64,000 nt of DNA, taken from contig JAUCSC010000001.1 of assembly GCA_030445265.1 (NCBI GenBank), positions 186,001-250,000 on the forward strand, read 5' to 3'. The notes beneath the pieces were generated by a model. The model searched no databases, had not been told where the DNA came from, and worked only from the letters and a program-made list of their open reading frames with translations. Shown piece after piece: positions 5,100 to 15,234 of the stretch. The stretch comes from Candidatus Saccharimonadota bacterium. Lineage in GTDB: Bacteria > Patescibacteriota > Saccharimonadia > Saccharimonadales > Saccharimonadaceae. Every line of letters begins with the position of its first letter. Position 1 is the stretch's first letter. Both the position numbers and the translations under genes were made by a program.

Positions 5100-6296
5100 T
5101 TGACGAAGCCAAAGACAAGCGATCAGACGCTGTCGACACTCCAATTTACCCACGATAAGACATTAGTCGAGCTTGAGCACTACAAGCTCCTTGTCGAAAG
5201 CGTCCAAGATTACGCTATTTTCCTGCTCGATCCACAGGGCTATATTATTACCTGGAACAAGGGTGCCGAACGCAATAAAGGCTATAAAGCCCACGAAATC
5301 ATCGGGCAGCATTTTTCGAAATTTTATCAGCAACATGATATCGATGCCAAAAAACCAGAACGGGAACTCAAGCTCGCCAAACAGTATGGGCGAATTGAAG
5401 ATGAAGACTGGCGGGTACGCAAAGATGGTACGCGTTTTTGGGCAAACGTCATCATCACAGCACTTATTGATGAAACCGGCACGCTGGTCGGCTTTGCAAA
5501 GGTGACCCGGGATCTTACCGAACGTAAGCGTCAGGAAGATGAGCTGCGCCAGGCAAATACGCTCCTGCGTAAACAACAACGAGAACTTCAGGCATTGAAC
5601 GCGGCAAAAGATGAATTTATTTCGCTTGCTTCACACCAGCTACGGACGCCGGCGACGGCGGTTAAGCAACTGCTCGCGATGCTCAAAGAAGGTTTTTATG
5701 GTGAAATTCCAGAAACCCACCAGCCGATTATTGATAAAGCCTACGCCAGTAATGAACGGCAGATAGCCATCGTCAATAGCCTTTTGCAAGTGGCGCAACT
5801 GGACGCGGGTAAGGTAGTGCTCCGCAAGTCGCTGACCGATATGAATAAGATGTTACCGGATATCATTGAAGAACAGAAAGATACGCTAGAAAGCCGCAGA
5901 CAGACGATCACGTACGAAGGGCCTAAGGATAATCCGCATGTTAATGTCGACCCGAAGTACATTCGTATGGCCTTGGAAAACCTGATCGACAATGCCTCAA
6001 AATATACGTATGACTACGGTACGATTAGCGTCACTTCGACCGTTGAAAGTGGGCAGCTTAGCATCGAGATAAAAGATAGTGGTGTTGGTATCGCCAGCGA
6101 TGATCTAGCAACACTGTTTGGAAAGTTTAAGCGCATACCAAATGAGTTTTCTCAAAAAGTAACCGGAAGCGGCCTCGGACTCTACTGGGTGCAAGAAGTG
6201 GTCGCCCTGCACGGCGGAACGATCCATGTCATATCCGAGCTAAAAAAAGGGACGACATTTACCGTTAAGCTGCCGCTGGAAAAATCACATGCGTAA
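5100..6296 (+). CDS. PAS-domain sensor histidine kinase (cytosolic), 398 aa
   Basis: A two-component sensor without membrane segments. A PAS domain spans ~28-142 (VQDYAIFLLDPQGYIITWNK, WRVRKDGTRFWANV), followed by a coiled linker. The HisKA box has the phospho-acceptor His179 in FISLASHQLRTPATAV. The HATPase part has the N box ENLIDNASKYTYDYG, G1 DSGVGI and G2 GSGLGLYWV. The start is TTG at 5100 with a GGGGG SD-like run 5-6 nt upstream. It overlaps the following receiver gene by 8 nt, so the two are probably a cognate pair. The signal may be a soluble ligand or redox state bound by PAS; no cofactor can be assigned. Confidence 0.92.
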   Translation: MTKPKTSDQTLSTLQFTHDKTLVELEHYKLLVESVQDYAIFLLDPQGYIITWNKGAERNKGYKAHEIIGQHFSKFYQQHDIDAKKPERELKLAKQYGRIEDEDWRVRKDGTRFWANVIITALIDETGTLVGFAKVTRDLTERKRQEDELRQANTLLRKQQRELQALNAAKDEFISLASHQLRTPATAVKQLLAMLKEGFYGEIPETHQPIIDKAYASNERQIAIVNSLLQVAQLDAGKVVLRKSLTDMNKMLPDIIEEQKDTLESRRQTITYEGPKDNPHVNVDPKYIRMALENLIDNASKYTYDYGTISVTSTVESGQLSIEIKDSGVGIASDDLATLFGKFKRIPNEFSQKVTGSGLGLYWVQEVVALHGGTIHVISELKKGTTFTVKLPLEKSHA

Positions 6297-6657
6297 AATA
6301 CTGGTTGTGGAGGATGAAGAGATTTTGCGCGAGTCTTATGAGTTGTTACTCGCCACACAGCCGTACGACGTCCATACTGCTGAGCATGGCGCCATCGCTC
6401 TCGAAAGATGCCAGCAGACACAGTATGACTTAATCTTACTCGACCTGATGATGCCCGTTCTTGACGGCGTGGGCTTTCTGAAGGCGTTTATGCCACTGGC
6501 GCCGGAACATACGCGTGTCATCCTGATGACTAATCTCTCGTCGGGCCTCGAGTTGGAAGAAGCCTTAAAATTAGGTGCTGAGCGGAGCGTCCTGAAGGCT
6601 TCGATGGCTCCACGCGAGCTCTTATCACTCGTTCGTTATGAGCTCGAGGCGTCATGA
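6289..6657 (+). CDS. Single-domain response regulator (CheY-like)
   Basis: A stand-alone receiver of 122 aa: acidic pair VVEDEE near residues 8-11, phospho-acceptor Asp52 in LILLDLMMP, Thr in VILMTNLS, and the conserved Lys in SVLKASM. There is no output domain, so it must act by protein contact or as a phosphorelay intermediate. It overlaps the PAS kinase gene by 8 nt and is presumably its partner. Confidence 0.92.
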   Translation: MRKILVVEDEEILRESYELLLATQPYDVHTAEHGAIALERCQQTQYDLILLDLMMPVLDGVGFLKAFMPLAPEHTRVILMTNLSSGLELEEALKLGAERSVLKASMAPRELLSLVRYELEAS

Positions 6658-6736
6658 TGGGTACGAATGCTAATATGACTTCAACAGACGGGCGAAATGG
6701 GCGCAAAGAAGCTCTCATTCTGATAAGCTAATAGAG

Positions 6737-7555
6737 ATGAGAATTCTCGATGGGGCAGAACTTGCCGGATTTATCAAAGCACGTCAGATCACGCAGGTAC
6801 GGGCGCTTCGTCAGGCATGGCAGGTCAGTCCAAAGCTAGCTATCATTCAGACGATTAACGAGCCAGTTGTCGACATGTATGTCGGCTTAAAGCAGGCCTA
6901 TGGCGAGGACATATTAATCGATGTTGACGTCCATAAAGTCGAGCAAAGAGCGGTACGTGATTTGATCAAGCAATTAAATGAGGATGAGTTGGTGCATGGC
7001 ATTATTGTGCAGCTCCCACTGGCCGATCCCAGCCAGACGGATGAGGTGGTGAATCTTATTGCGCCTGAAAAAGATGTCGATGGGCTGGGTACTGACGCCA
7101 CGATGACGCCGGCGACGGCCTTGGCGATTGAATGGCTGCTGGCTGGCTACAACGTGACGCTTAAGGGCAGGCAACTGGCCATTGTTGGTAATGGCCGATT
7201 GGTCGGCGCACCGCTATACAAACTATGGAGCGGTATGGGCCTCGATGTCCGTGTCTATGATGATACGGTCGGTGATTTAACGCGTCCGCTACGTTCGGCT
7301 GAGGTTGTCGTTACCGCCACAGGCGTACCGGGTCTGATACGATCCGCCATGCTACGGCCCGGTGCAGTCGTTGTCGACGCTGGTACCTCTACTGAAAATG
7401 GCAAAATAGTGGGCGATACGGCCGCTGATGTGCGGGAACGTGACGACCTCATCATTACACCGATAAGAGGCGGCGTCGGGCCACTCACTGTCACGGCATT
7501 ATTTGATAATGTTATACAAGCGGCGCGCATTGTCGCCGACGCAAAACAACTCTAG
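6737..7555 (+). CDS. folD: Bifunctional methylenetetrahydrofolate dehydrogenase/cyclohydrolase FolD
   Basis: Interconverts 5,10-methylene-THF and 10-formyl-THF with NADP+. Catalytic YVGLK (Lys ~52) is present, as are QLPLADP, KDVDG, the Rossmann motif GNGRLVGAPL and the C-terminal PIRGGVGPLT. At 272 aa it is slightly shorter than the usual ~285. The N-terminal QLPLA replaces the common QLPLP, and GNGRLVG replaces GRSxxVG, both modest deviations. It is the only folate enzyme in the window. It ends 2 nt from the convergent receiver gene. Confidence 0.95.
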   Translation: MRILDGAELAGFIKARQITQVRALRQAWQVSPKLAIIQTINEPVVDMYVGLKQAYGEDILIDVDVHKVEQRAVRDLIKQLNEDELVHGIIVQLPLADPSQTDEVVNLIAPEKDVDGLGTDATMTPATALAIEWLLAGYNVTLKGRQLAIVGNGRLVGAPLYKLWSGMGLDVRVYDDTVGDLTRPLRSAEVVVTATGVPGLIRSAMLRPGAVVVDAGTSTENGKIVGDTAADVRERDDLIITPIRGGVGPLTVTALFDNVIQAARIVADAKQL

Positions 7556-7557
7556 TA

Positions 7558-7926
7558 TTATTGTCCGAGTGCTTCTTTGACGCGTTGGACGACTTGTCGG
7601 GGCGTCAGCTCTGCCTTAACGATGTAGCTGTGAATGCCGAGTCCGCGGATTTCTTTTGGAGATTCTTCTTCACCGAGATTGGTGAGGATGATAACTGGGA
7701 TGTCTTTGCCCCACGCGTTCTTTCGGATGACAGTCAAAGCTTCGGCGCCATTCATTTCGGGCATCTGTAAATCCATGAGAATAATATCTGGCTGGAACTC
7801 TTCAACCATGGCAACGCCACGCTTGCCATTGTTTGCCAGCTGGACATCGTAGCCATCGGCCTCGAACTTCATGCGGTACATTTGGTTGATGACAGGGTCG
7901 TCTTCGATGATGGCTATCTTGGTCAT
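7558..7926 (-). CDS. Single-domain response regulator (CheY-like)
   Basis: A 122-aa receiver without output domain: acidic pair IIEDDP, phospho-acceptor Asp52 in IILMDLQMP, switch Thr in VIILTNLGEEE, and Lys in SYIVKAE. The sequence resembles the 6289-6657 receiver in length and layout (TNL after the switch residue), suggesting paralogues. It is divergent from the SpeD-like/GNAT/kinase cluster and may receive phosphate from the two membrane kinases there, which lack an adjacent regulator. A consensus-spaced promoter lies immediately upstream and the mRNA is likely leaderless. Confidence 0.92.
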   Translation of the reverse strand: MTKIAIIEDDPVINQMYRMKFEADGYDVQLANNGKRGVAMVEEFQPDIILMDLQMPEMNGAEALTVIRKNAWGKDIPVIILTNLGEEESPKEIRGLGIHSYIVKAELTPRQVVQRVKEALGQ

Positions 7927-7932
7927 ACGCTA

Positions 7933-7961
7933 ATCATACGATAATCTCATCACCCTTTCAA
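7933..7961 (-). promoter_or_regulatory. Promoter of the 7558-7926 response regulator
   Basis: On the minus strand TTGAAA (7956-7961), a 17-nt spacer and TATGAT (7933-7938) precede the ATG (7924-7926) by only 6 nt, so the start codon falls at the expected transcription start. Confidence 0.8.
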
Positions 7962-8013
7962 GGTTATGCTATGATATCTGCAGTTTTATGCTATAGTAAC
8001 TTAAGTAAACACG

Positions 8014-8355
8014 ATGAAAGATTTAGCACCGACGATATATCGACAACGACTCGTTGTCGAAGGATACCCTAAGAAGGCTATTACTGATGAAGAAATTAAA
8101 AAGTTTCTTTCAGAGCTGTCGGTCGTGCTTGATATGAAGCAACTCATAGAACCTGTTACTCATCGAAGCGATATGTATGGCTGGGCTGGCTGGATACATT
8201 GGGAAACCTCAGGTGCTCATTTTTATGCATGGGAACAGCCTCTCCTGTTTTTTAGCGTAGACATCTATACATGTAAGGCATTCTCGCCACAGCAAGCGGC
8301 CGACTTTACCAAACAGTACTTTGAATGTGATAGCGTTGAGTACCAGGGTTTCTAA
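8014..8355 (+). CDS. S-adenosylmethionine decarboxylase (SpeD)-like protein, 113 aa
   Basis: Length and fold signature match prokaryotic AdoMet decarboxylase proenzyme. The core HWETSGAHFYAW followed by FFSVDIYTCKAF aligns with the family's ESHLSIHTW and VDVFTCG. Aligning on the Trp, the pyruvoyl-forming Ser is kept (Ser66), as is the catalytic Cys (Cys87). The preceding Glu becomes Thr and the processing His becomes Tyr71, so self-cleavage is uncertain. No spermidine synthase or arginine/ornithine decarboxylase is nearby. The stop overlaps the GNAT-like gene start (TAATG). TATAGT at 7992-7997 implies a ~10-nt leader with no SD. It could be a repurposed AdoMet-binding or AdoMet-converting enzyme. 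Confidence 0.7.
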   Translation: MKDLAPTIYRQRLVVEGYPKKAITDEEIKKFLSELSVVLDMKQLIEPVTHRSDMYGWAGWIHWETSGAHFYAWEQPLLFFSVDIYTCKAFSPQQAADFTKQYFECDSVEYQGF

Positions 8356-9173
8356 TGCTTGAACAGGACATATCCATACCGGAAAGTCTTGTGCCGCGAT
8401 ACGATCTATCGCACGTGGAAATAAAAAGTTTAACGAATGATTTGCTGGCGGAACGTTCAGAGTCTTTAGTAGCGCAGTCTCAAATAGTTATCTTTGAGGC
8501 CGGGAGCAATAGTGCATATACAAACATAGGCCGTTACATCGAACGTGTCGTGTTTGAAGAATCGTTTGGAAACGACACTCAGGAGATGGTCAGAGAGTAT
8601 GGCCCCTATGAAGCCGCATCGTTGTTCTTTATAGCAATAGATACGGCCGAGGCGGAGCCAGTAGGGGTGATTAGAATAATTGAGAATTCTCCTGCTGGTC
8701 TGAAGACGTTAAACGACGTACAGAATCCTCCATTCAGTATATCGTTTGATTCGGTCGTTAGCGCACATAGCATCGACGACATGGATAACGTATGGGACAT
8801 CGGTACTGCTGCGGTATTGCCTTGCTATAGGTTTTCTGACAAGGGAAGTCCCAGCTTGATGTTATATGCTAGTGGGATAAGGCAGGCAAATATACTAGGT
8901 ATTGAGCATGTCGTTTCTCTTGTGGATGATAAGGCGTATAGGAATATGACACAAAACATAGGTATACCTTTTCAGCCGCTCGCTGATGCCCTACCAGCGA
9001 GTTATCTCGGTTCGAAACTGAGCCATGCAGCGTACGGAAGAGTAGATGAGTTTATCCCTAGTATTATTGAAAAGATGAAGGCTACTGCAGATACGGGGCT
9101 TGGGAAGCGTATTTCACCTATAGTCATGAAGTACCTGTTCGAAGACAATACTATACCTACTCGTAATACGTAA
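8355..9173 (+). CDS. GNAT/LuxI-like acyltransferase-fold protein, 272 aa (tentative)
   Basis: No close family is recognised with certainty. A central stretch looks like an N-acyltransferase fold: FFIAIDTAEAEPVGVIRII (beta strands with the usual G-x-x-R-I), then VWDIGTAAVLPCYR, and a helix after it (SLMLYASGIRQANILGI). This pattern, with W-[ED]-x-[GS] followed by a buried strand, recalls GNAT enzymes of the autoinducer-synthase/N-acyl amino acid synthase type. There is no signal peptide or membrane segment. It overlaps the SpeD-like gene by 1 nt and is followed 43 nt later by two sensor kinases. The context suggests synthesis of a small molecule. Confidence 0.5.
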   Translation: MLEQDISIPESLVPRYDLSHVEIKSLTNDLLAERSESLVAQSQIVIFEAGSNSAYTNIGRYIERVVFEESFGNDTQEMVREYGPYEAASLFFIAIDTAEAEPVGVIRIIENSPAGLKTLNDVQNPPFSISFDSVVSAHSIDDMDNVWDIGTAAVLPCYRFSDKGSPSLMLYASGIRQANILGIEHVVSLVDDKAYRNMTQNIGIPFQPLADALPASYLGSKLSHAAYGRVDEFIPSIIEKMKATADTGLGKRISPIVMKYLFEDNTIPTRNT

Positions 9174-9216
9174 GACTTTACTGTAAAAAGTATTACGCTT
9201 ACGCTACACTGTTATC

Positions 9217-11388
9217 GTGGACATTATCATTTTAGTCGCGACCTGTGTTATTAATTTTGCTCTTGGCGCGATTATTTTAATGCAGGATCCCAGAAATAAT
9301 TATCTCCGTGCCTTTGCTCTCATAAGTGGTCTGACATGCTTTTGGAGTATCTCGAATTATGTGACTGAACTATCTCTCGCAGATATAGCAGTTAACGGTA
9401 TTGCAAACAACCTCGCATTTATCACCGGCTACTGTGTGATGTTGGCCGCGGTCCTATTTACGTATCTGTTTCCTGTACAGCGCAGAGTAAAAACATACGA
9501 AGTATTTATTATCAGTATAGTCAGCTTAATTGTGATAGCCATGTCATCCACGCCCCTCATCGCTGGTACCGTCACAGAAAATACGGACGGAATCTTACAG
9601 TTCTCGAACGGACCTTGGCTATGGTTATATATCGTTAGCTTTATATCACTCTTAGCTATTATTGCTCGTAATTCGCTTTTCTCAGTCGGGCACCTGCAGA
9701 AAAGCCAGAAAACACAAGCTTGGCTCGTTTTCATGGCATTTTTTACTGGCGGTATGATCGGGCTTCTCTTTAATATCATATTGCCTATATTTATGGAGAG
9801 TTGGCATACCACACGATACGGCCCACCGATAGGATCGCTCGCTCTTGTTGGAATAATTGTATACGCCATATCAAAACACCGGCTTTTTGATATACGACTG
9901 GTCGTTGTCCGCTCAGCAACCTACGTGCTGACTATCGGGACGTTAGCGGCCCTCTACTTCTTGATTGCATATAGCGTTTCATCGCTCCTCTTTAGTCCGG
10001 ACACGCCGTTAGTCTCGCAGAGCCCAGTCAGCATAGGGCTGGCGCTCGTACTGGCTTTATTGTTTCAGCCAATAAAGCGGTTTTTTGATAAATTGACGAA
10101 CAAGGTTTTCTATAGGGATAATTACAGTACCGATGAATTCTTCGCAAGGTTAAATCGGAAACTGTCGTCAACGACTGACTTACGGGGGCTGCTCAAAACA
10201 GTTTCAGCTGAAATAAGTACGACGCTAAAAGCCTCACAAGGTTACTTTTTTATATATACTGCCCATGGCCATTATGTTTCGGTTGGTACAGTCGACCATA
10301 CTCATCTCCCAAAATTAGACGCTATTGAACTGGACAAGTATGTTTCAAAAACTCAGGCCACGATCATTACGTTAGATGCACCGGCTACGCCTCAGCTGGT
10401 ACATAGGATAATGATAAGTCACAAAGCAGAGTTAATCTTACCTCTCGTGATGGATAAGGGAATCCTAGGCTACCTACTGCTCGGAGAACATCGAGTCTCA
10501 AAATTTGTGCAACGTGATATAAAAGTACTGGAAACGATAGCCGACGAACTCGTGATCGCGATTCAGAATGCACTTTCAGTCGAACAAATAAAAGATATTA
10601 ACGCGCATTTGCAGCAGCGTATTGATCATGCGACAAAAGACCTTCGATCGAGTAATGCTCAACTTCGTCGACTTGATGAAGCGAAAGACGAATTTATCAG
10701 CATGGCCTCGCACCAGCTGCGGACACCGCTGACTGGTGTAAAGGGCTACATTAGTATGGTCATGGATGGCGATGCCGGTGAGGTCACTGACTCTCAAAAG
10801 CACCTCCTCAACGAAGCATTCATCAGTAGTGAACGCATGGTGCGTTTAATCAACGATTTCCTCAATGTGTCGCGCCTGCAGACGGGCAAATTTACCTTAG
10901 ATACAAAGCCAACCGATCTTTCAAAGGTGGTGACAGAAGAATTAAATAGCTTGCAGCCAAATGCATCTCCCCGCGGGCTTTCCTTCAATTTTACGCAGCC
11001 TACGACCTTCCCAACGCTTAACTTTGATGAGGCAAAGATACGCCAGGTTATTATGAACTTTGCCGACAATGCCCTCTATTACTCGCGTGAGGATACCATC
11101 ATCGATGTATCACTCGCCATTGAGAATGATGAAGTAATCTTTAAAGTCAAAGATAAGGGCATCGGCGTGCCAAAATCAGAACAAGCCCGACTGTTCAATA
11201 AGTTCTTCCGGGCGACCAATGCGCGCCGGCAGCGCCCTGACGGAACAGGCGTGGGGCTTTTCCTGGCAAAGAAAGTCGTGACCGCTCACCACGGCGATGT
11301 CATCTTCGAGTCCGAAGAAGGAAAAGGGAGCACCTTTGGCTTTCGTATTCCGGTTCATGAGGTGCAGCTCGCGGGAGAGAGCGAGTGA
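9217..11388 (+). CDS. Membrane sensor histidine kinase (7TM N-terminus, GAF, HisKA, HATPase), 723 aa
   Basis: The N-terminal ~240 residues hold seven to eight hydrophobic segments like the HisKA_7TM sensor module, ending in a juxtamembrane YAISKHRLFDIRLVVVRS motif. A GAF-like domain follows (~310-460), then a coiled coil. HisKA carries FISMASHQLRTPLTGVKGYI, and HATPase carries N box NFADNALYYS and G boxes KDKGIGVP and PDGTGVGLFLAKKVV. GTG start at 9217, with TACACT upstream. The stop overlaps the start of the next kinase (TGATG). The sensor module suggests a membrane-soluble or extracellular ligand. Confidence 0.9.
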   Translation: MDIIILVATCVINFALGAIILMQDPRNNYLRAFALISGLTCFWSISNYVTELSLADIAVNGIANNLAFITGYCVMLAAVLFTYLFPVQRRVKTYEVFIISIVSLIVIAMSSTPLIAGTVTENTDGILQFSNGPWLWLYIVSFISLLAIIARNSLFSVGHLQKSQKTQAWLVFMAFFTGGMIGLLFNIILPIFMESWHTTRYGPPIGSLALVGIIVYAISKHRLFDIRLVVVRSATYVLTIGTLAALYFLIAYSVSSLLFSPDTPLVSQSPVSIGLALVLALLFQPIKRFFDKLTNKVFYRDNYSTDEFFARLNRKLSSTTDLRGLLKTVSAEISTTLKASQGYFFIYTAHGHYVSVGTVDHTHLPKLDAIELDKYVSKTQATIITLDAPATPQLVHRIMISHKAELILPLVMDKGILGYLLLGEHRVSKFVQRDIKVLETIADELVIAIQNALSVEQIKDINAHLQQRIDHATKDLRSSNAQLRRLDEAKDEFISMASHQLRTPLTGVKGYISMVMDGDAGEVTDSQKHLLNEAFISSERMVRLINDFLNVSRLQTGKFTLDTKPTDLSKVVTEELNSLQPNASPRGLSFNFTQPTTFPTLNFDEAKIRQVIMNFADNALYYSREDTIIDVSLAIENDEVIFKVKDKGIGVPKSEQARLFNKFFRATNARRQRPDGTGVGLFLAKKVVTAHHGDVIFESEEGKGSTFGFRIPVHEVQLAGESE

Positions 11389-13649
11389 TGGAATACTTAA
11401 ATTCTATTGCAAGTTACCTGCCGCTCGTTGGAGGAATCTTCCTGCTGCTTCTGGCTATTGCCATCCTAGCCAGTGGAAAGTTTGACCGATACCGAGCACA
11501 TTTTAGCTATTTCATTGCGGCAACCGCAGTATGGTCCGGCGTCATCAGCTTCTTTATGATGTCGAATAACGAAATGGTAGCCCATGGTTTGATCGTCACG
11601 TATTACGTCGCCGCCTTGGTGGTTGGTTATGGTATGTTGCTGTTCGCACGAAGTATACCGGTCAAAGACGGTAAGAGACGCCGCTATACATTCCTCATGG
11701 ACTTCCTGCTTAGTCTTCCTGCTACATTAACGACCATTTGGATCGTTTTTACCGATGGATTTATTAATAAGCTGCTCGTGACAGAAGAAGCAAATCTGGT
11801 TGAGCTGTCGTTGCCGCTCTATCTCTTTTACTGCGCAGTTTTCGGGGGATATGTCATCGCTGCGATGTATATCATGCGGTCGAAGTACCGCGCGGCGCAG
11901 CGCTCGAGTACGAGACTTTTGCGACAGCGTCTCCGGCTGGTGGCTGGGGCGATTATCTTTGGTATGTCGTTCGCCGCTGTCTTCAACTTGATATTACCAG
12001 TCCTGGGTATATATAAATTTATCTGGATCGGGCCGCTGGGCATTATTCCATCGGTCATAGCCTTTTGGTATGCCATCATTCGGCATGGCCTGTTTGATGT
12101 ACGGCTGATTCTTTCCCGAACCATTACCCATTTCTTCCTCCTCACCAGCTTGATCGGTATTTATGCTGTCCTCGTCTATGCAATCGGCCATTTCATTATC
12201 AATGACTCGCAACCAGTCATCGTACGAGAATCAGTCAATATTATTAGTGCCGTGATCTTAGCCTTTAGCTTCAAGCCACTACAAAAGCTTTTTGATCGAC
12301 TGACGTTCCGTCTTTTCTTTCGGCATGACTACTCAGTAACAGCCGTCCAGCAGGTAATAAATAAGATCGTGGCAGAAGAGACGAGCCTCGAGAAGCTAAA
12401 TCGACGCACGCTCGATATTCTCCAGGCGGTACTAAACCCGCTCTATATTCGGCTTTTCGTGTTCCGCGAAGACAAGACCTACGAGTATCACCATGGCATG
12501 GCGCGACTCAAACATAATGTCAAAGAAAGCCAGGTCCATTTCGCTCAGCTGGTTGCCGTCCATGACAAAGTGTTGTTTACGCAAGATGATTTTATCGAAA
12601 CGATCGATAGCGATAAGGCCCTGATATCGATGGCCCATGAAGGCGATGTCGATGTTGCTTTGCAGCTGAAGGTACAGGGTGAACGGGTTGGCCTGCTGCT
12701 GCTTGGTACGAAGCGAAATCTTGCGGCCTACACTAAGCAGGACTATCGCTTGCTCACCTTGACCGGAGAAGAAATTGCCCTGGCTATCCAAAACGCAATG
12801 CGGCTCGGGCAAATCGAAGACCTCAATCAGAACCTTCAGCACCGTATCGTTGAAGCAACGAAGGAACTTCGTTCATCCAACCGTAGCCTCAAGGCGCTGG
12901 ACGACACTAAAGACGAATTCATCAGTATGGCGTCGCACCAGCTTCGAACGCCGCTGACGAGTGTCAAGGGGTACCTCAGCATGGTACTTGATGGTGACCT
13001 TGGAGTAATCTCGCCGTCGCAGAAACAAGTGCTGACGGAAGCATTTACGAGTAGTGAGCGGATGGTGCATTTGATCAACGACTTCTTGAATGTTTCACGT
13101 CTGCAAACGGGCAAGTTTATGATCGATCAAAGTGAGGTAAATCTCGCAAAAATGCTCCAGCAGGAAGTCGAAGGACTTCATACCTTCGCTGGTTCCCGCC
13201 AGATTAAACTGGAATACCATAAGCCAGCCACCTTCCCCCTTCTCATGATTGACGAAGGCAAGCTCCGACAGGTCGTGATGAACTTTATTGATAATGCCGT
13301 CTATTACTCACTGCCCGGAGGCACAATCCAGATAGAGCTGAAGATCAACCGCGGCAGGGCCATTGTGACGATCAGGGATCATGGTATCGGCGTGCCAAAA
13401 GCTGAGCAAGATCAGCTTTTCAGCAAGTTCTTCCGCGCGACCAATGCCCGTCGGCAGCGTCCAGACGGCACGGGTGTCGGACTGTTCCTCGCCAAGAAGG
13501 TTATAATGGCGCATCACGGCGACGTCGTGTTCTCTTCGGAAGAAGGCAAGGGGAGTGTCTTTGGCTTTAGCTTACCAATCGAGGAATTACGCACCAGAAA
13601 TGATGCTGATAAACTCGATAATCAGCCAGACGATAACGCTAAGCACTAG
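11388..13649 (+). CDS. Membrane sensor histidine kinase, paralogue of the preceding gene, ~753 aa
   Basis: Same architecture as its upstream neighbour: 7TM module (~1-240), eighth segment, GAF-like domain, and HisKA with FISMASHQLRTPLTSVKGYL. The HATPase ends in DHGIGVPKAEQDQLF and PDGTGVGLFLAKKVI. The kinase cores of the two proteins are nearly identical, while the sensor parts diverge, which points to tandem duplication followed by sensor change. The track start is GTG 11385; ATG 11388, overlapping the upstream TGA, is equally good. No receiver gene follows. The C-terminus ends in a hydrophilic tail (NDADKLDNQPDDNAKH). Confidence 0.9.
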   Translation: MEYLNSIASYLPLVGGIFLLLLAIAILASGKFDRYRAHFSYFIAATAVWSGVISFFMMSNNEMVAHGLIVTYYVAALVVGYGMLLFARSIPVKDGKRRRYTFLMDFLLSLPATLTTIWIVFTDGFINKLLVTEEANLVELSLPLYLFYCAVFGGYVIAAMYIMRSKYRAAQRSSTRLLRQRLRLVAGAIIFGMSFAAVFNLILPVLGIYKFIWIGPLGIIPSVIAFWYAIIRHGLFDVRLILSRTITHFFLLTSLIGIYAVLVYAIGHFIINDSQPVIVRESVNIISAVILAFSFKPLQKLFDRLTFRLFFRHDYSVTAVQQVINKIVAEETSLEKLNRRTLDILQAVLNPLYIRLFVFREDKTYEYHHGMARLKHNVKESQVHFAQLVAVHDKVLFTQDDFIETIDSDKALISMAHEGDVDVALQLKVQGERVGLLLLGTKRNLAAYTKQDYRLLTLTGEEIALAIQNAMRLGQIEDLNQNLQHRIVEATKELRSSNRSLKALDDTKDEFISMASHQLRTPLTSVKGYLSMVLDGDLGVISPSQKQVLTEAFTSSERMVHLINDFLNVSRLQTGKFMIDQSEVNLAKMLQQEVEGLHTFAGSRQIKLEYHKPATFPLLMIDEGKLRQVVMNFIDNAVYYSLPGGTIQIELKINRGRAIVTIRDHGIGVPKAEQDQLFSKFFRATNARRQRPDGTGVGLFLAKKVIMAHHGDVVFSSEEGKGSVFGFSLPIEELRTRNDADKLDNQPDDNAKH

Positions 13650-13899: not shown

Positions 13900-15234
13900 T
13901 TAGCGGCCCATCAGAGCACGGCGGCTCGTGATGTAGTAACCGAGGCTTGCAACAATCGATCCTGCACCGAGGAAGCTGAGGACGGCTTCACCTGCACCAG
14001 TCGTTGGAAGTTCTGAAGGTGTTTCAGTCTTCACTGGAGTGGTAGGCTTTGTAGGTGTTGTAGGGGTCGTTGGAGTGACAGGTGTTTCCTTACAGTAAGG
14101 GCTGTTCTTCGGGAGGTTTTCCTTACCCTTGACAGCACATTTCTCGACTGGGGTCTCACACTTTTTCGTCACGACAATTTCAGCGGTGTCTTCTTTTGAA
14201 CCGACACCGGTCGTTGCTTTAGCAGTGTTAACCAACTTGTTCGTGCCACAGGCAGCGAGTTTGTCGTTAGCAGCTACTTGAGCAGTGAACTTAAGGTAGG
14301 CATCACCACCACCGAGGAATCCACCAATGTTCATACCGCCAGCAGTAATGCCGTCAGCAGTTTGCTTGGTGCCTGCAGAGTTGTGGAGGTAAGTACTACC
14401 AGCAACATATGTCATGCCAGTAGGAAGTACGTCTTTGATCACAACGTCTTTAAGCTGTGCACCACCAGTGTTCTTAAAGTAGATTTGGTAATCAACCTTT
14501 GAACCAGGAGTGGTAGTGACGCTTTCTTTGAAGGTCTTATCTGTTGAACCGTTAAGGCGTACAGTCTTCTGAACGTCAAAGTCAGATGTTAACGCTTTGA
14601 CCTTGAAGGTAACAAAGCCATCATACTTGAAACAGCCAGGAATCTTACCGTCAAGCTTGTCGTATCCGAGCTTTGCACCAGTACTAACGACGCTGTCACC
14701 GAGGGGTGTACCACTCGTGAAAACCTTATTGGTGTACTGGGCAGAACCTTCGAGGTAGTCGAGCTGGAAGTTTGAGGTGCTGTTGAAGACAGCTTGGTCC
14801 CAAACTTGCTTTGGGTCTGCATTACTTGACGCTAGGTAGCCATCAACCTGGATACGCTTTGCGCTTTGTGATGGAACGTTGAACTTTGCTGTGACGTCTT
14901 CGGCAACAAGGTTCAGGTTTGCTGAGGCGTTGTTGTGGACGTACATACGGACGTAGTATTCTTTACCGTTCTGAACGGTAATATCATCTGTCCAGCCGCC
15001 AGCATTGGTGTTGGCAGCATCTTTGATGGTAACGAAGTTTCGTTCGTCGCCGTAGTTAGGGTTGTTTGTGATTGAGTTGAACGTGACCTTTGTAGCCGGG
15101 TGTTCAATGGTATAGGTATCGCGACTTGGTCCCCAAGCAAAAACAGCTGCAGGTACGATGATTGCGGCAGCAACCATGGCAACAACGGCGTTAAGCTTTG
15201 GAGCACGTCGCAAAAGTGACGTTACTGTCTTCAT
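13900..15234 (-). CDS. LPXTG-anchored DUF11-type surface protein, 444 aa
   Basis: Secreted and probably wall-anchored. A signal peptide covers ~1-33 (LNAVVAMVAAAIIVPAAVFA). A middle beta-rich region follows. A DUF11-like repeat sits at ~240-350 (VDYQIYFKNTGGAQLKDVVI, DVLPTGMTYVAGSTYL). Then comes a TP repeat linker (TPTTPTTPTKPTTP) and a sortase signal LPTTGAGE with hydrophobic helix and basic tail SRRALMGR. A strong SD (AAAGGAGAA) lies before ATG 15234, unlike the leaderless neighbours. No sortase is encoded in the window. It is likely a surface-layer or adhesion protein for contact with host cells. Confidence 0.88.
   Translation of the reverse strand: MKTVTSLLRRAPKLNAVVAMVAAAIIVPAAVFAWGPSRDTYTIEHPATKVTFNSITNNPNYGDERNFVTIKDAANTNAGGWTDDITVQNGKEYYVRMYVHNNASANLNLVAEDVTAKFNVPSQSAKRIQVDGYLASSNADPKQVWDQAVFNSTSNFQLDYLEGSAQYTNKVFTSGTPLGDSVVSTGAKLGYDKLDGKIPGCFKYDGFVTFKVKALTSDFDVQKTVRLNGSTDKTFKESVTTTPGSKVDYQIYFKNTGGAQLKDVVIKDVLPTGMTYVAGSTYLHNSAGTKQTADGITAGGMNIGGFLGGGDAYLKFTAQVAANDKLAACGTNKLVNTAKATTGVGSKEDTAEIVVTKKCETPVEKCAVKGKENLPKNSPYCKETPVTPTTPTTPTKPTTPVKTETPSELPTTGAGEAVLSFLGAGSIVASLGYYITSRRALMGR

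Follow-up and report, generated by a model that had tools for sequence, protein, structure and literature searches.

The window, by which we mean the whole stretch of 64,000 nucleotides analysed here (Candidatus Saccharimonadota bacterium, assembly GCA_030445265.1, contig JAUCSC010000001.1, positions 186,001 to 250,000), carries a gene for a homologue of the S-adenosylmethionine (SAM, AdoMet) decarboxylase SpeD, followed by a gene for an acyltransferase of the GNAT fold and by genes for two membrane histidine kinases, HK1 and HK2. Comparison of this locus with its relatives led us to regard positions 8014–11388, that is the SpeD-like gene, the acyltransferase gene and HK1, as probably one allele of an exchangeable cassette for the synthesis and sensing of a small-molecule signal. 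The pairing of the synthase with the sensor is, on the sequence comparisons, likely; a role of the SpeD-like protein as supplier of a decarboxylated acceptor is proposed tentatively. The original prediction for this DNA had joined five genes, including both kinases and a divergent receiver gene, into one module of signal synthesis and sensing. All its coordinates were reproduced in a check of the open reading frames, and the combined module is supported for the synthase and HK1, whereas HK2 and the receiver fall outside it. The genome of the window is a single contig of 645,641 bases (77.6% complete), and most genomes compared with it were metagenome assemblies.

The locus and its variable slot

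In the family of genomes to which the window belongs, the locus has a fixed order: a FolD-like gene (6737–7555, forward strand), which forms the fixed left flank; a gene for a single-domain receiver (7558–7926, reverse strand; 122 aa, PF00072); a variable slot; a single HK1-family kinase; and a surface protein gene on the opposite strand. The slot of the window holds the genes for the SpeD-like protein (8014–8355, forward strand; 113 aa) and the acyltransferase (8355–9173, forward strand; 272 aa), and HK1 (9217–11388, forward strand) follows.

SpeD plus acyltransferase, referred to as type A, was found in the window and in genomes G015, G006, G133, G139, and G156; G051, which has the acyltransferase alone, was counted as type A. 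Type B (G014, G023, G016, G004) is an enzyme of 290–420 aa that hhalign aligned to a set of LuxI-like proteins with an E-value of 9e-16. Type C is a fusion of an acyltransferase with ThiF (G011, G003), present as one protein of 550 aa in L182 and L192, and type D is a family of methyltransferase-like proteins (G001, G009, G007, G012, G021). There are few cases of type E, of type F and of an empty slot. Type E is a pyridoxal phosphate (PLP) enzyme of the ornithine/arginine/diaminopimelate decarboxylase type (G020, L180:1344-3712; G062, L181:1870-3051), overlapped in G020 by a gene for a 412-aa protein that has no Pfam match. Type F consists of an AMP-binding-like enzyme, ThiF and a nitroreductase-like protein (G028, G084), the last having Pfam support in G028 only. 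The slot was empty in G013, G005, G002, and G032. In three of these four the seven-transmembrane (7TM) part of the kinase was lost: the kinases of G005, G002, and G032 (L134, L141, L149) have 0, 0, and 1 transmembrane helix, respectively.

Co-variation of the kinase sensor with the slot

The slot types were fixed in writing before any kinase was compared. The sensor (residues 1–225 of HK1) and the kinase core (residues 485–715) were then examined separately in 21 kinases. Sensor identity was 0.37 within slot types and 0.17 between them, while that of the core was 0.676 within and 0.679 between. The excess of sensor identity over the prediction based on the core was never reached in 20,000 permutations of the labels (p = 5e-5), and this result was stable on omission of any single slot type. 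Along the kinase, the difference between the two kinds of comparison faded past about residue 225. In a larger set searched by BLAST, the sensor found its best match within its own type in 27 of 29 cases, compared with 10 of 27 for the kinase core.

A direct view of the exchange came from two close relatives, G014 (type B) and G015 (type A), whose DNA is 88% identical as far as the start codon of the receiver gene. Their sequences are unalignable over the slot, the sensor and the GAF domain, and are 90% identical again from about residue 446 of the kinase. As the similarity ends at the receiver start codon, the intergenic stretch that separates the divergent receiver gene from the cassette (7927–8013 in the window) is exchanged too. 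At the protein level, the kinase cores of the two genomes share 97% identity and the sensors 17%. These comparisons indicate that exchange takes in the slot enzymes together with the sensor half of the kinase, as a single unit. An enzyme and the membrane part of the neighbouring kinase would be expected to move jointly if the product of the enzyme is the ligand of the kinase. The sensor of G051 is clearly type A although this genome has no SpeD-like gene; the sensor type therefore follows the acyltransferase, not SpeD. With the acyltransferase and 7TM kinase genes staying together and the sensor co-varying with the slot, the earlier proposal of a linked module of synthase genes and kinase was strengthened.

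The kinases and the receiver

HK1 and HK2 each carry HisKA, HATPase_c, and GAF domains (Pfam), and in HK1 the GAF domain is situated between the sensor and the core. The AlphaFold (AF2) model of HK1, with a predicted local distance difference test (pLDDT) score of 80, shows seven long helices at the N-terminus and, after them, further hydrophobic ones. Neither kinase matched PF16927 (HisKA_7TM), a family matched at 48 and 58 bits (against 28.6) by kinases beside LuxI-like genes of other Patescibacteria. Foldseek found weak, generic matches of the HK1 sensor to 7TM receptors (E at best 1.7e-3, TM-score 0.3–0.5), which were not taken as kinship. The co-variation points to HK1 as the cognate sensor of the cassette.

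HK2 (11388–13649, forward strand) is a tandem paralogue of HK1. It can start at the ATG at 11388, with a one-base overlap with the HK1 stop codon (TGATG), so that the predicted overlap of the two genes holds, as do their kinase domains; the 'twin' arrangement, however, is peculiar to this genome, relatives having one kinase. The best match of the HK2 sensor, a weak one, was to type D, the methyltransferase-type slot. Being absent from all relatives read, with a sensor weakly nearest another type, HK2 was rejected as a member of the module. Possibly it is a resident kinase that the cassette has displaced. The receiver gene was found in 49 of the 61 genomes searched, whether the cassette was present or not, and was rejected as a cassette member for this reason; it is a fixed left neighbour of the slot rather than part of a five-gene module.

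The acyltransferase

The sequence signal of the acyltransferase was weak. It matched TIGR03694 (exosortase-associated acyltransferase) with an E-value of 4.6e-4, and PF00765 (Autoind_synth) was not matched at E up to 1. A search of PDB sequences with profile A2 of the acyltransferase gave nothing useful, nor did phmmer searches of the same sequences with the acyltransferase and with the SpeD-like protein. An AF2 model was obtained from an alignment of 12 relatives (pLDDT 90). Its top matches by Foldseek and fold comparison were RpaI (Z 16.8), LasI (15.7), FeeM (15.7), and BjaI (15.3); they resemble it in fold (Z 15–17) at 11–15% identity. Polyamine acetyltransferases also appeared, ranked below the acyl-homoserine lactone (AHL) synthases. 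FeeM and the plain GNAT protein 5jph scored equal to the AHL synthases, so that fold alone cannot decide the reaction. According to the model, the second protein of the cassette has an AHL-synthase-like acyltransferase fold, and the alignment of its family by hhalign to the LuxI-like set (E 3e-17) agrees with this. The predicted GNAT fold, reminiscent of AdoMet-using autoinducer synthases, was thus borne out, and where a lack of any structural match to acyltransferases had been named as the possible failure, AHL synthases came first.

We take the canonical LuxI residues to be an Arg and an Asp of the N-terminal helix region, an Asp/Asp pair, the Arg of GxxR, and E-x-S-R. As judged by hhalign and conservation, Arg107 of the acyltransferase is kept, Glu86 stands for Asp, Asp148 stands for Glu, and the Ser-Arg of the LuxI ExSR motif is Gly-Thr; the charged-residue set of LuxI is not present as a whole. 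Since these positions are partly kept, the protein is called AHL-synthase-like, and not a proven LuxI.

Profile A2 also reached proteins of other Patescibacteria, several of which pass the cut-offs of Autoind_synth and/or FeeM (40.6 bits for L126 and 43.2 for L127, against a PF00765 cut-off of 24). These LuxI-like proteins adjoin a 7TM kinase, which was HisKA_7TM by Pfam in both kinases scanned. In five loci from other Patescibacteria (L122, L123, L125, L126, L128), a ThiF/E1-like adenylyltransferase adjoins the FeeM/LuxI-like acyltransferase, and a 7TM histidine kinase follows.

The SpeD-like protein

The SpeD-like gene ends in TAA, whose last base is also the first of the acyltransferase ATG (TAATG), which is the predicted 1-nt overlap; the acyltransferase gene is thus translationally coupled to it. 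The product of the SpeD-like gene matched Pfam AdoMet_dc (PF02675) with 43.6 bits (cut-off 25) and hence belongs to the superfamily, but it did not reach TIGR03330, the equivalog of bona fide AdoMet decarboxylase (20.2 vs 75.65). When aligned with Aquifex aeolicus SpeD (2iii), it retained the pyruvoyl Ser63 and Cys83; position 68 is Tyr instead of His, position 55 is Ala, and Thr precedes the pyruvoyl Ser. Another gap placement could align His69 with His68, but the Ser-His spacing would be 3, not 5. SG, Y71, and YTCK were invariant across 13 sequences of the family, and the pattern was kept in essentially all sequences of 80 further loci, where L115 has YACK and L045 has Ile before the Ser. 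Canonical-type SpeD homologues of other Patescibacteria, found with the same profile, retain Ser63-x4-His68. Ser63, His68, and Cys83 are needed for self-processing and catalysis of SpeD (PMC10407285); with Tyr at 68, this set is incomplete in the family. The sequence thus agrees with the earlier statement that the pyruvoyl Ser and catalytic Cys are kept while the processing Glu and His are changed.

With His68 replaced, a partner protein that is not processed has to be taken seriously as an alternative. The module would be the same, and the SpeD-like protein, forming no pyruvoyl group, would serve the acyltransferase as a binding partner, carrier or regulator. Such a role would account for the family-wide replacement of His68 by Tyr and Ser55 by Ala where canonical-type patescibacterial SpeD keeps His68, and for the strict one-to-one coupling to the GNAT gene. 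It fits poorly with the invariance of Ser63 and Cys83, and with relatives that stand alone or beside SAM-using enzymes without any GNAT gene, which suggests a catalytic role of their own. We consider it rather unlikely. The decarboxylated acceptor remains our guess in view of the SAM-binding acyltransferase fold of known AHL synthases, the divergent SpeD found beside MetK-like and nicotianamine-synthase-like proteins, and the PLP decarboxylase slot of G020 and G062. That divergent SpeD homologue is in G227 (L035:4734-7159); the nicotianamine-synthase-like protein beside it (PF03059, 3e-20) presumably acts, by its family, on the same part of SAM. MetK is present in the genome of the window.

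The prediction that no polyamine partner gene accompanies the SpeD-like gene held: no match to Spermine_synt_N (PF17284) was found in the 77.6%-complete genome, while controls were positive. This bears on a further explanation, in which the locus is an operon for polyamine metabolism or surface modification (SpeG-like acetylation, or exosortase/sortase-associated acylation) and the kinases sense envelope stress. The weak TIGR03694 match, the polyamine acetyltransferases among the lower fold matches and the LPXTG surface protein next door lend it something. AHL synthases nevertheless outrank those acetyltransferases, surface proteins are not fixed neighbours of the pair in Actinomycetota, and co-variation of the sensor is not expected. 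The polyamine operon was rejected because no spermidine synthase domain was found in the 77.6%-complete genome, and the explanation as a whole is very improbable.

Distribution of the SpeD-acyltransferase pair

A contig scan for SpeD-like relatives found 162, of which 80 were kept, mostly from Saccharibacteria and Actinomycetota. The protein occurred in 14 of about 290 genomes of the class Saccharimonadia, ten of them, the window included, at an identity of at least 64%. The Actinomycetota among the 80 were Actinoplanes and its kin, Blastococcus, Modestobacter, Cryobacterium, and Mycolicibacterium sphagni. As had been predicted, the two small genes stay together: the acyltransferase gene was directly downstream of SpeD in 75 of the 80 loci, and in 67 its start codon lay between −7 and +16 nt relative to the end of the SpeD frame.

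A 7TM kinase adjoins the pair in Saccharibacteria and in M. sphagni. The small genes and the kinases, whose parting in relatives had been named as the outcome to watch for, thus remain together in Saccharibacteria; in most Actinomycetota the kinase is absent. A 7TM kinase as the partner of every pair was accordingly rejected, a GGDEF-EAL protein or nothing recognisable taking its place there. In 32 actinobacterial loci a membrane protein with GGDEF-EAL, or with one of these two domains, lies at most 1 kb from the pair, in three arrangements (an example is L056, 4461–6836). Cyclic di-GMP is a possible output of the same signal in these loci.

In the SpeD tree (113 columns), Cryobacterium was nested in Saccharibacteria (starred support), an indication of horizontal transfer. 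The contig of an M. sphagni isolate (L044:7007-10422) holds a cassette like that of Saccharibacteria in full, with SpeD, acyltransferase and a 7TM kinase whose sensor is of type A, and transfer of this cassette between phyla is likely. At L028:3514-7412 (G301), a SpeD-like gene without acyltransferase is accompanied by a soluble kinase and, separately, by a membrane protein of 280 aa; the opposite-strand gene facing it (6169–7074) is DUF2156/LPG-synthase-like by eye.

Saccharibacteria are known epibionts of Actinomycetota. The slot enzymes might accordingly modify or degrade a ligand made by others, such as an actinobacterial host, and the sensor might detect this foreign ligand, the cassette serving for eavesdropping or quenching rather than for a signal of its own. 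The occurrence of the same pair in both groups and the very different chemistry of the slot enzymes are compatible with this. AHL synthases and FeeM, however, are biosynthetic enzymes, and in Actinomycetota, too, the pair often adjoins a sensor-type protein. We consider eavesdropping improbable.

Flanking genes

The gene on the right of the locus (13900–15234, reverse strand) encodes a surface protein of the DUF11 type with an LPXTG-like C-terminus. It is the fixed right flank in most relative loci read, and is a candidate for a regulated target of the locus. Just upstream of FolD, positions 5100–6657 hold a further pair of a PAS-domain histidine kinase and a receiver, giving three kinases and two receivers within 8.6 kb.

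Discussion

We propose that the acyltransferase would move an acyl group onto an amine or a SAM-derived acceptor, giving a signal able to diffuse or to cross membranes. This signal would bind to the 7TM domain of HK1, and the domain would control the kinase core, which probably hands the phosphate to the conserved divergent receiver. The SpeD-like protein may tune or feed the product, our best guess for what it provides being decarboxylated SAM, or else a different amine formed by pyruvoyl-dependent decarboxylation. Enzyme genes and sensor half would be inherited and swapped jointly in front of a conserved kinase core, in the manner of pherotypes. We infer that the enzyme product is the ligand of HK1 and acts between cells.

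Several observations weigh against this reading. The catalytic residues of the LuxI type are kept in part only in the acyltransferase. Loci of Actinoplanes and Cryobacterium have no recognisable adjacent sensor. The two failures among the 29 sensor matches are the type F sensors (L186, L187), which are not mutual best matches, and the kinase of G013 stays multi-transmembrane though its slot is empty. His68, which is altered in the SpeD-like family, is required for pyruvoyl formation in Thermotoga maritima AdoMet decarboxylase (PMC10407285). Finally, G051, of the same bacterial family as the window, and G076 and G080, of two further families, have a GNAT gene with an adjacent kinase and no SpeD-like gene at the sensitivity of the profile, so that SpeD is not needed for the pairing.

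These last genomes invite the explanation that the GNAT protein is an ordinary synthase of AHLs or N-acyl amino acids, SpeD being an incidental neighbour, all the more as 7TM kinases adjoin ordinary LuxI-like enzymes here and in an earlier survey (PMC7567580). An incidental neighbour would hardly keep overlapping or touching frames over two phyla, also where the kinase is gone, or be far better conserved than its partner (64–77% identity among relatives for SpeD, only ~40% for GNAT). We give this explanation little credence, and retain the signal cassette with the SpeD-like protein as a part of it.

Small-molecule synthase genes adjoining their own membrane histidine kinase are known from LuxM/LuxN and CqsA/CqsS of Vibrio, in which the kinase is likewise multi-pass; the likeness is one of gene arrangement. 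To our knowledge, these systems have no accessory decarboxylase-like gene and do not occur as exchange cassettes. RpaI, LasI, BjaI, and FeeM, alike in fold, differ from the acyltransferase in part of the LuxI catalytic positions.

The ComQXPA pherotypes of Bacillus (PMC4008528) are similar in that variable signal genes and the N-terminal membrane sensor are joined to a conserved cytoplasmic kinase domain, giving distinct communication types among close relatives. Co-variation of this kind is found in the window's cassette as well. ComQXPA, however, has a modified peptide as its signal, and its types are variants of the same genes (PMC4008528), whereas the present locus places non-homologous small-molecule enzymes (SpeD or ThiF with acyltransferases, methyltransferase-like proteins, PLP decarboxylase) before one kinase core. 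Where ComQXPA has a peptide pheromone with its isoprenyl transferase, the window's slot has the genes for the SpeD-like protein and the acyltransferase; no isoprenyl transferase was found in the slot proteins scanned with Pfam.

A 2020 survey described 18 LuxI homologues beside sensor kinases in the Candidate Phyla Radiation (CPR) (PMC7567580). As here, a LuxI-like acyltransferase gene adjoins a membrane sensor kinase in Patescibacteria, but its main text has no SpeD-like partner, we found in it neither slot polymorphism nor co-variation with the sensor, and the acyltransferase of the window falls below Pfam Autoind_synth detection. SpeD homologues of changed function that lack a spermidine synthase, namely L-ornithine and L-arginine decarboxylases, are widespread in the CPR (PMC10407285); they keep Ser63, His68, and Cys83, in contrast to the present family with its Tyr at 68 and its coupling to an acyltransferase. 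In the open-licence literature we found no earlier report of SpeD with a LuxI-type synthase (absence there being no proof of novelty), and none of the variable slot and its sensor co-variation. A survey from 2026 on LuxI in Actinomycetota (PMC13136126) contains no mention of SpeD, Actinoplanes or GGDEF. The principle of a specificity cassette is known; its realisation with non-homologous small-molecule enzymes is new.

A bolder and unlikely extension, offered as speculation, is that non-homologous synthases, each with its own sensor half, are traded at this one locus as a signalling system of a new class, and that the allele of the window makes a new chemical class of signal, an acylated derivative of decarboxylated SAM (for example an N-acyl-3-aminopropyl compound), common to Saccharibacteria and to Actinomycetota, the group that includes their hosts.

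Saccharibacteria have very small genomes and live as parasites on other bacteria. They nevertheless retain a polymorphic locus that has the look of a private communication channel. The locus would form a natural set of matched enzyme-sensor pairs with the receptor for each product next door, and the products could be found by which extract activates which sensor. As the SpeD-acyltransferase pair is also present in cultivable Actinomycetota (Actinoplanes, Blastococcus, Cryobacterium), its chemistry is testable in culture. To the known neofunctionalisation of SpeD, with its arginine and ornithine decarboxylases, a third branch may be added.

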